NCBI GenBank assembly: GCA_004213215.1
Contig: SHAO01000002.1
Location: 1-54,055 of the forward strand
Length of the DNA: 54,055 bases
Direction of reading: 5' to 3'
Origin: Candidatus Pelagibacterales bacterium
Lineage (GTDB): Bacteria > Pseudomonadota > Alphaproteobacteria > Pelagibacterales > Pelagibacteraceae
Part shown: positions 28,182-31,290 of the stretch, in pieces
Layout: every line of letters starts with the position of its first letter
How positions within the stretch are numbered: position 1 is the stretch's first letter
Made by a program: the position numbers and the translations under genes
Notes under the pieces: model-generated
Seen by the model: the letters and a program-made list of their open reading frames with translations, nothing else
Database searches by the model: none
What the model was told of the DNA's origin: nothing

Positions 28182-28967
28182 TTATTTTTCAATATCGAGT
28201 GCTCTTTTGGCAATTATTGATGAATTTTTAAAATTATTTTTTCCGTAGTAAAATTTTTCTTCTTCGTGTGTAGTCATGTATCCTCCAGCATGCTCTAAAA
28301 TAGCGTGTCCAGCAGCAATGTCCCATTCATATGCTCTAGCATTTGCGGCATAGATATCAGCTTCACCAGCTGCTATAGCACAAAATTTTAAAGAGCTAGA
28401 CATTTTAAGCATCTGTGAAACTTTATATTTTTTGTAAATATTTATAACTTCAATTGGAGTTTTTCCTGAGTTTTCTAATCCTATTATTTTACCAACATTG
28501 ATTTTTTTACAATTTAAATTTATTTTTTTCCCCTTATTAATTTCAAAAGACAAACCTTTACCATAAGAAAAAAACAATCTTTCTTTCGCGGGAGCAAAAA
28601 TGATGCCAAGAACTGGTTTTAAGTCAATTATTAATGCTGCATTTAAAGTATATTCATCTTTTTTTCTTATATAGTCCCTAGTTCCATCTATTGGGTCAAC
28701 TAACCAAAAGTTTTTTTCTTCATTTTTAATTTTTAAGTTTATCGTTTCTTCAGAAATAATAGATATATTTGGAGTAAGACGTTTAATCTGATTTCTTAAG
28801 AGTTCATCAACAGCTAAATCTCCATCTGTCACAGGCGATTTATCAGGCTTAATTGTAATTTTTACACCTCTCTTACTAATTTCTTTAGCAATTTTTCCAG
28901 CTTGCAAGAATGTATCTAGCAGGTCTTCAGTAATATTTTTTATGTTTAGGCTATTCAATTTTATCAA
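28182..28967 (-). CDS. cysQ: inositol monophosphatase-family / 3'(2'),5'-bisphosphate nucleotidase
   Basis: 261 aa; ISEETI, DPIDGTRDYI, AYEWDIAAGHAILEHAGG. Initiation at TTG if 28967 is the start. Confidence 0.85.
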   Translation of the reverse strand: MIKLNSLNIKNITEDLLDTFLQAGKIAKEISKRGVKITIKPDKSPVTDGDLAVDELLRNQIKRLTPNISIISEETINLKIKNEEKNFWLVDPIDGTRDYIRKKDEYTLNAALIIDLKPVLGIIFAPAKERLFFSYGKGLSFEINKGKKINLNCKKINVGKIIGLENSGKTPIEVINIYKKYKVSQMLKMSSSLKFCAIAAGEADIYAANARAYEWDIAAGHAILEHAGGYMTTHEEEKFYYGKNNFKNSSIIAKRALDIEK

Positions 28968-29127
28968 TTCTTTCTAAAAAAATTTCTTTACTGTTTATAA
29001 CCTTCTTTCCAACATTTTCAAAATTAACAGTTACCTTGTGTTTAATAATAGATTGGATTTGACCAGTTCCCCAATTTATATTTTTAGGATTAATTACATA
29101 ATCTCCTGGCTCATAATTTAAAAACAT
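28951..29127 (-). CDS. DUF3553-like small protein (58 aa)
   Basis: Reverse strand: [58 protein letters not shown]. Overlaps the cysQ start. Not in ORF track. Confidence 0.75.
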
Positions 29128-29173: not shown

Positions 29174-30322
29174 ATGATAAATATAGCTAAAAAAGTTAAC
29201 TCTTTAGGTTTTTTAAAGAACCCAAAACAAACAAAAGTGGTTGTTGCCATGTCAGGAGGAGTAGATTCATCTACTGTAGCTGGCTTGATGAAAAAGGAGG
29301 GTTATAATGTGATTGGCATTACTCTCAAACTTTATGATGATGCAAAATCATCAAAAAAAAGCAAACAATGTTGCGCCGGGCAGGATATTTTGGACGCAAA
29401 GAGGGTATCTCAACAACTCAATATTAATCATAAAATTTTATATTACCAAAAAAAATTTAAAAAAGATGTTATCGATTCATTTGTTGACAGCTATCTTGGT
29501 GGAGAGACACCAATACCCTGTGTAAAATGTAATCAAACTGTTAAATTTAGAGATCTGTATGATTATGCACAGGAATTAAATGCGGATGCTTTAGTTACAG
29601 GTCATTATGTTAATAGAATTCAAAAAAATGGAAATGCAGAAATGTATAGAGCAGCTGATTTAACTAGAGATCAGAGTTATTTTCTTTTTGCAACCACTCA
29701 AGAACAGCTTAATTTTTTAAGATTTCCATTGGGGGCTATGCATAAAGGAGAAACACGCCAAGTAGCTTCCGAACTTAATTTAAATGTTGCAGACAAGCCA
29801 GATAGTCAGGATATATGTTTTGTGCCTAATGGAAATTATGCATCAGTAATTAACAAATATAGACCAGAATCTTTTAAAGAAGGCGATATCTTGGACATTC
29901 AAGGTAAAATAATTGGAAAACATGAAGGAATAATCAATTTTACAATTGGTCAAAGAAAAGGCATTAAAATATCAAATCAAGAACCATTGTATGTTGTAGA
30001 TATTATTGCAAAAGAAAATAAAGTTATTGTGGGAAGAAAAGAAGATTTATTTGTTAAAAAAATTTATTTAAAAGACATAAATCTTTTAAGTGATTTAGAA
30101 AATTATCAAAATGATTTATTTATAAAAGTAAGATCAACAGGAAAACTAATTAAAGCTAAAATATTAATGAACAAAACTGGTGGAGAAGTGGAATTATACG
30201 AAGATGAAACGGGAATATCTCCTGGGCAAGCCTGTGTATTTTATTCTAAAAATGAACTTGGGGATAAAGTTTTAGGGGGCGGATGGATAACCCGTACATT
30301 AAACAAATATTTATCCCCATAG
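29174..30322 (+). CDS. mnmA: tRNA-specific 2-thiouridylase
   Basis: 382 aa; [70 protein letters not shown]. Confidence 0.96.
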
Positions 30323-30379
30323 TTATCAACCTCAAATTTTATAATAAAAAACAACTAAATAGTGATTTAGTTTATTGTA

Positions 30380-30542
30380 AAGGAGTTTATATTAAAGGGT
30401 GACTTAAGGGGCAACCCTTAACTGGCCAGACAAAGAAAGACCGAGAGGTTCAAGCTTGTAGGGCAGAAAACTCCGCAAAGTAGCGCTTAACATAGCGGGG
30501 TGGCGGGTTCGGCGGTAGCGCATTACAACGACGAGCCAAAAA
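30380..30542 (+). ncRNA. candidate structured non-coding RNA of unassigned family
   Basis: G/C-rich island in an AT-rich intergenic region. Perfect hairpin TTAAGGG-GCAA-CCCTTAA (30404-30421), long-range GGAGTTT/AAACTCC (30382-30388 / 30468-30474), GGTTCG/CGAGCC (30506-30511 / 30532-30537). No convincing ORF. Strand inferred from the downstream hairpin and U-tract. Confidence 0.65.
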
Positions 30543-30545
30543 TTG

Positions 30546-30584
30546 AAAGTTCTAGCACGAAAGTGTTAGAACTTTTGGTTTTTT
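30546..30584 (+). terminator. hairpin terminator of the candidate ncRNA
   Basis: AAAGTTCTAGCAC-GAAA-GTGTTAGAACTTT (13 bp with one G-U, GAAA tetraloop) followed by tggtttttt. Confidence 0.8.
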
Positions 30585-31290
30585 AGGCCTGTCTTTTTTT
30601 CCAAAATAGAAATGTTAGCAAGTAAAAGGAAACTACGCCAATAAAGTAATTCCACTCCAAGGCATGTTTAAAATGTGTGTGACCACTTGATGTTAATATA
30701 GGTAAAGAAGCTATAGCTACAATAGATAGCAAAGCAACTAATATCATTTTAAATATTAGAACCTTTTTATTAATGAAATCTAAAATTTTATTTTTTACTT
30801 TAAAGAGAAAAATTACTAACAACGCTTGGGCTATTATTTCAAATACAATGAATCCTAGTAAGATAAATCTTCTAAAAAATTTATATAAGTCATACTCAAA
30901 ATTAACTCCTAAAAAAATGGAATGAGCAATTAAAAATATAGCTGAACTTACACCAAAAAATAAAAATTTATAATTTGTTTCTTTTTGATTATTGATTGAC
31001 TGAGCCATATTGTTATTTGCAAACCAATATTTAATTAAAAGAAAAGCTGTTATTATCATTCCTGGTTTAAAAATAAGATAGGTGGGGTAATTTCTAGCTG
31101 TTCTACTTATTGATACACCACCATCAATGTATGGTATAGTAAAAGCACTTCTACCCAATTGATCTACTACAAAAATTGTATTTTCAAAAATTAGATAGTT
31201 TACTGAAATAAACAGACAAATATTTAGGATAATTACAGGTAAGAAAAAAATCCAAATACTTATTCTTCTTATACGGATAATCTCTTCCAC
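30583..31290 (-). CDS. multi-TM membrane protein, unknown
   Basis: 235 aa, about 6 TM; no family recognised. Confidence 0.6.
   Translation of the reverse strand: MEEIIRIRRISIWIFFLPVIILNICLFISVNYLIFENTIFVVDQLGRSAFTIPYIDGGVSISRTARNYPTYLIFKPGMIITAFLLIKYWFANNNMAQSINNQKETNYKFLFFGVSSAIFLIAHSIFLGVNFEYDLYKFFRRFILLGFIVFEIIAQALLVIFLFKVKNKILDFINKKVLIFKMILVALLSIVAIASLPILTSSGHTHFKHALEWNYFIGVVSFYLLTFLFWKKRQA

Follow-up and report, generated by a model that had tools for sequence, protein, structure and literature searches.

A SAR11 member of the marine IMES-2 RNA family: a predicted kissing loop and conserved upstream elements

Results

The locus

The window, by which we mean the whole stretch of 54,055 nucleotides of Candidatus Pelagibacterales DNA analysed here, holds between the end of mnmA (30322) and a convergent ORF (30583-31290, - strand) a segment without any sensible ORF; both the lack of an ORF and the convergent orientation had been pointed out in the preliminary description of this DNA. 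The features of the locus are as follows:

29174-30322, + strand: mnmA, the upstream neighbour, outside the RNA gene (Pfam tRNA_Me_trans domains, E 5.2e-74)
30311-30331, + strand: tandem DnaA-box-like 9-mers (TTATCCCCA at 30311-30319, TTATCAACC at 30323-30331), which overlap mnmA at its 3' end
30361-30367, + strand: -35-like element AGTGATT (AGTGATA in most relatives), from the upstream alignment
30388-30393, + strand: putative -10-like element TATATT, assigned by its place in the upstream alignment
30397-30539, + strand: IMES-2 RNA core (RF02035, full length)
30404-30421, + strand: H1 hairpin, TTAAGGG-GCAA-CCCTTAA with a GNRA loop, from covariation
30422-30466, + strand: H2, interrupted by an inner 4x4 loop (GAAA/CAAG) and closed at its tip by a GNRA loop (GAGA), from covariation
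30470-30501, + strand: H3 stem-loop, 30470-30476 with 30495-30501, from covariation
30483-30487, + strand: predicted 5' half of the kissing loop, GCGCU, in the terminal loop of H3, from covariation and held-out congeners
30506-30537, + strand: H4 stem-loop, 30506-30514 with 30529-30537, from covariation
30517-30521, + strand: predicted 3' half of the kissing loop, AGCGC, in the terminal loop of H4, from covariation and held-out congeners
30546-30584, + strand: intrinsic terminator, a 13-bp GAAA-capped hairpin and U-run, read in the sequence
30583-31290, - strand: convergent 235-aa ORF, the downstream neighbour, whose translation reads as a membrane protein

A Pfam search of the 235-aa ORF returned no match. 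On the other side, a 58-aa DUF3553 ORF (28951-29127, - strand) lies just upstream of mnmA and adjoins an inositol monophosphatase-type gene. Several elements that had been read by eye are present in this arrangement: the H1 hairpin; the GGTTCG/CGAGCC stem, which falls within H4 (30506-30511 with 30532-30537); and the terminator hairpin (30546-30558 with 30563-30575), followed by its U-run (30579-30584).

Identity as IMES-2

The preliminary description had left the RNA unassigned, as either a known marine family, for instance of the IMES type, or a new one, and had called for a scan of Rfam. Using cmscan, the sole match above the gathering score in the whole window was IMES-2 (RF02035), at 30397-30539 on the + strand, with 133.3 bits against a curated cut-off of 54.7 bits, an E value of 2.6e-34 and the model covered in full (1-141 of 141). 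The first of the two options thus stands, and precisely as IMES-2, while the second falls. The alignment to the model covers every helix of the four-helix consensus, and the conserved loop nucleotides of the family are present in the window (GGCAAC, GAAA..CCGAGAGG..CAAG, GCAGAAA, AGUAGCGCU, GGCGGUAGCGC and CCAA). Window and model have in common the four helices, the GNRA loops, the GAAA/CAAG loop, the AGUAGCGCU and GGUAGCGC loops and the CCAA end, and differ in that the window has two additional nucleotides, one in each large loop. Its score lies below that of most Pelagibacter members (140-166 bits); R1, a model that we built from SAR11 IMES-2 sequences, scores the window core at 140.4 bits. 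IMES-2 is an already known Rfam family, reportedly named for marine environmental sequences, and the locus adds a member to it rather than a new kind of RNA. A confident Rfam match had been named beforehand as what would remove the novelty, and by that criterion most of it is gone.

The preliminary description had been unable to match the RNA to landmarks of tmRNA, RNase P, SRP or 6S; IMES-2 alone matches the locus. Of 12 IMES-2-positive genomes examined, all 12 carry RNase P RNA (RF00010) and alpha tmRNA (RF01849) and 9 carry bacterial small SRP RNA (RF00169), as separate genes elsewhere in the genome, so that IMES-2 is none of these; nor did the IMES-2 locus give a covariance-model match to any of the three. 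In the case of 6S RNA (RF00013), which like IMES-2 is a short stand-alone bacterial RNA gene but has a different fold, no match was obtained in the window or in 248 genomes of the order, with a Caulobacter control that did score. IMES-1 (RF02034), of the same named series of marine environmental RNAs, gave no match in 40 SAR11 genomes in a search run without a positive control.

The nested fold

The segment 30397-30583 is far more stable than its shuffled versions (z -5.0; 0 of 200 shuffles as stable). Covariation in SAR11 relatives, another check proposed at the outset, was assessed on 67 distinct cores for the nested structure plus a loop-loop helix described below: 98.3% of the cells are paired and 29 of the 41 pairs show double changes, with a covariation score of 0.403 against 0.173 in shuffled and at most 0.100 in slid alignments. 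Because the nested structure guided the 67-core alignment, the counts for the nested helices are biased in its favour; the loop-loop helix lies outside that model. Stability, Rfam match and covariation together bear out the claim that this is a structured RNA beyond chance. By helix, (i) H1 has 7 pairs, 100% of cells paired and 4 pairs with double changes, and its GCAA loop is kept in at least 90% of the 67 relatives and also in g2; (ii) H2 has 10 pairs, 99.4% of cells paired and 6 with double changes, its tip helix being weaker (90.3% of cells paired) and its tip loop, GAGA in the window, being swapped for GCAA or GAAA in some relatives; (iii) H3 shows double changes in all 7 of its 7 pairs; and (iv) H4 has 8 pairs, 5 of them with double changes and 99.4% of cells paired.

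Two further observations concern this part of the RNA. A rarer H3-H4 half, of the GACGAAGGUAGUACUUCAACAGCGUC type, occurs in L229, L230 and L231 (g1), in L036 and L133 (g6) and in L091 (MED605), that is in several genera, as if it had been exchanged between lineages. At L120, IMES-2 stops inside H3 and continues into a tyrosine-recombinase coding sequence, a break that is probably a single-cell amplification chimera.

One proposed element of structure did not survive. The long-range GGAGTTT/AAACTCC pairing had been thought to enclose the H1 hairpin; the 7-nt complementarity does exist in the window, and the thermodynamic fold takes it up when the 5' flank is included, but it is absent in congeners, and complementarity of this type in relatives does not exceed that of shuffles (mean 3.3 versus 3.6 nt). 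The pairing would also break H3, with its fully covarying stem, and its GGAGTTT half is situated after the -35-like and before the -10-like element, which puts it upstream of the likely transcript.

A predicted kissing loop between H3 and H4

The covariation indicates that the terminal loops of H3 and H4 form a kissing loop, in which GCGCU of the one pairs with AGCGC of the other. Columns 92-97 of alignment A2 pair with columns 129-133, and double changes occur at 3 of the 5 pairs. Columns 93 and 132 hold CG in 63 and UA in 4 of the 67 sequences, and columns 94 and 131 hold GC in 60 and AU in 7, in both cases without exceptions, so that the two middle pairs have zero mismatches. Taken alone, the loop-loop helix shows double changes in 13 cells, where shuffles give 1.5; so few pair types exist that their count does not exceed that of shuffles. 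An MI scan places its pairs among the true stems, and the A94-U131 state arose in at least three separate clades of a tree built without the loop-loop columns. The loop words found are AGCGCU/AGCGC[AC], AUCGCU/AGCGC[A], AUCGCU/AGCGAG, AGCACU/AGUGCU, AGUACU/AGUACU and AGCGCU/AGCGAC. The prediction made from the 67 sequences also fits 15 held-out congeners examined afterwards, among which L229 shows a new word pair, AGUGCU/AGCACU, and L230 and L231 show AGUACU/AGUACU. In contrast, the Rfam consensus line for IMES-2 draws both of these large terminal loops open, and the kissing loop is absent there. Covariance models cannot encode crossing helices, so the authors of the family may nonetheless have known of it.

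Distribution in SAR11

IMES-2 occurs once in the window's own genome. Of the 248 genomes of the order, 113 have it, in one copy each, and so do 77 of the 149 of high quality; in the window's genus, where completeness averages about 70% (most genomes are 55-80% complete), it was found in 16 of 23. It was found in none of the 387 alphaproteobacteria sampled outside the order, and blastn gave no match in phage or plasmid records. A 22-nt pattern retrieved 80 loci from GTDB, all titled Pelagibacteraceae, Pelagibacter or Pelagibacterales; the genome of the window falls in the same family as the named Pelagibacteraceae, in agreement with the marine origin of IMES-2. Among the genomes sampled, then, IMES-2 is restricted to SAR11. 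We considered whether the negative genomes, of which G011 is one, might hide a divergent copy, and rejected this: model R1 recovers the same 113 genomes, and several negatives have the locus intact without IMES-2. No IMES-1 was found as a replacement in negative genomes, in the search without a positive control. About half of the high-quality SAR11 genomes lack IMES-2, which speaks against a housekeeping RNA common to all of them; for a core cellular RNP role, some backup would have to exist, and the patchy distribution argues for regulation over an essential function.

Gene neighbourhoods

Across 130 loci, IMES-2 lies in three unrelated settings: (i) with mnmA upstream and a convergent ORF downstream, at 32 loci including the window; (ii) in most g3 genomes, preceded by a tyrosine recombinase and small ORFs and followed by an O6-methylguanine methyltransferase-like gene; and (iii) in g2, with a nuclease-like gene upstream and a convergent SRAP-like gene downstream, the gene names in (ii) and (iii) being read from translations and not from database matches. 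Several g3 genomes keep setting (ii) with both flanks undisturbed but the entire IMES-2 unit missing; IMES-2 behaves as a self-contained, dispensable unit.

Two side observations were made in these neighbourhoods. The long AT-rich gap that separates the methyltransferase-like gene from a DMT-type transporter contains a strongly conserved noncoding element of about 110 bp (TAGAGCGATGCACTAATTGAATATACCATTTAAACG...GGTACAACTGAAGGGTGAAT), at L053, L055, L056 and L058-L066 and at many IMES-2-positive g3 loci (e.g. L041, L044, L047); the element matches nothing in Rfam, has no DnaA box and gives no consensus RNA fold for either strand. In G015, the methyltransferase-like locus is close to a sign change of the GC skew.

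The control region and the terminator

In all lineages and neighbourhoods, IMES-2 is preceded by the same upstream block, made of the tandem 9-mers (TTATCC[AC]C...ATT[CA]ACA-like in the aligned lineages) and an AGTGAT element at about -35. A 9-mer within one mismatch of TTATNCACA is present in 63 of 67 upstream regions, against 12% of shuffles, and AG[TC]GAT lies 34-37 nt before the start of the core in 62 of the 67 relatives, followed by a -10-like stretch. The spacer between the two elements is about 20 nt in the window, where both the -10 element and the start of transcription are putative. DnaA may act as a regulator at the DnaA-box-like 9-mers before the IMES-2 promoter. As to a regulon sharing the block, a gapped pattern searched in 17 genomes matched the IMES-2 block in G048 and G094, and its four other matches, which fall inside coding sequence or straddle it, are probably fortuitous; we rejected the idea.

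On the 3' side of the core, the relatives examined have a stable hairpin, mostly with a U-run, whose sequence is lineage-specific. Within one genus IMES-2 is followed by either of two unrelated terminator sequences: L222, L227 and L228 have a near-identical copy of that in the window, in contrast to L220, L221 and L224.

Discussion

That the locus is the IMES-2 gene of a SAR11 bacterium, with the fold described and transcribed on its own, as a unit of about 180 nt present in one copy, is, taken as a single claim, very probable. The host lineage, the neighbourhoods, the control region and the kissing loop are useful additions to what Rfam holds on IMES-2 and do not make it a new kind of RNA.

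As for its function, we tentatively propose the following. The kissing loop, the GNRA loops and the short purine-rich internal loops would lock IMES-2 into a compact tertiary shape, and the compact RNA would act in trans by binding protein, as an RNP or a sequestering RNA, not via an antisense seed. We regard this trans-acting, protein-binding role as possible, at somewhat less than even chances. It is likelier than antisense pairing because the longest conserved unpaired run in IMES-2 is 4 nt, which leaves no seed of the kind used by Hfq- or ProQ-type sRNAs.

An sRNA of that type, regulating mRNAs through exposed loops and using the Rho-independent terminator as its chaperone site, would fit a gene with its own promoter block and a U-tailed terminator that many genomes dispense with, as is typical of regulatory sRNAs; yet the most conspicuous loop words (GUAGCGC) pair mutually and change together, and the conservation looks tertiary rather than seed-like, which leaves this possibility a rather unlikely one. 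Less likely again is that IMES-2 stands in for 6S RNA as an abundant RNA polymerase-binding RNA. The lack of any detected 6S RNA in the order speaks for such a substitute, as does the great abundance that IMES RNAs are said to have in the ocean, whereas IMES-2 has four separate helices in place of a long duplex with a central bubble, has no closing stem, and is, together with 6S RNA, missing from half of the SAR11 genomes.

A riboswitch or other cis-acting leader of the downstream gene, O6-methylguanine methyltransferase-like in most Pelagibacter genomes, is very improbable. In the c4/c5/recombinase neighbourhood that gene shares the strand of IMES-2 and begins directly behind the terminator, but in two of the three neighbourhoods, those of mnmA and of g2, the gene that follows is convergent and core, promoter block and terminator are all kept; negative genomes, moreover, retain the methyltransferase-like gene in the absence of IMES-2. 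The same upstream block and a terminator in three settings make IMES-2 a stand-alone unit, as had been judged more likely from the convergent neighbour at the outset. That the locus is part of a replication origin, conserved as DNA and not as RNA, can be dismissed in spite of the tandem TTATNCACA-like boxes, given that the GC skew, positive on both sides in the window and placing IMES-2 of G015 near the + to - switch on the terminus side, rules an origin out, and that compensatory base-pair changes show RNA structure.

Returning to the protein-binding role, a bolder version of it can be imagined, in which IMES-2 would be a compact, lineage-specific RNA with an RNP of its own, locked by its kissing loop, whose transcription DnaA would couple to replication or growth by acting at the tandem boxes before the promoter, and which would serve as a global regulator where 6S RNA is not detected. 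We consider it a long shot. Should IMES-2 turn out to be an RNP RNA linked to growth, this would bear on how genes are controlled in a group that ranks among the most abundant bacteria of the sea; and with IMES-2 placed as a single-copy unit in named SAR11 genera, with an improved fold and a conserved control region, its function becomes directly testable.
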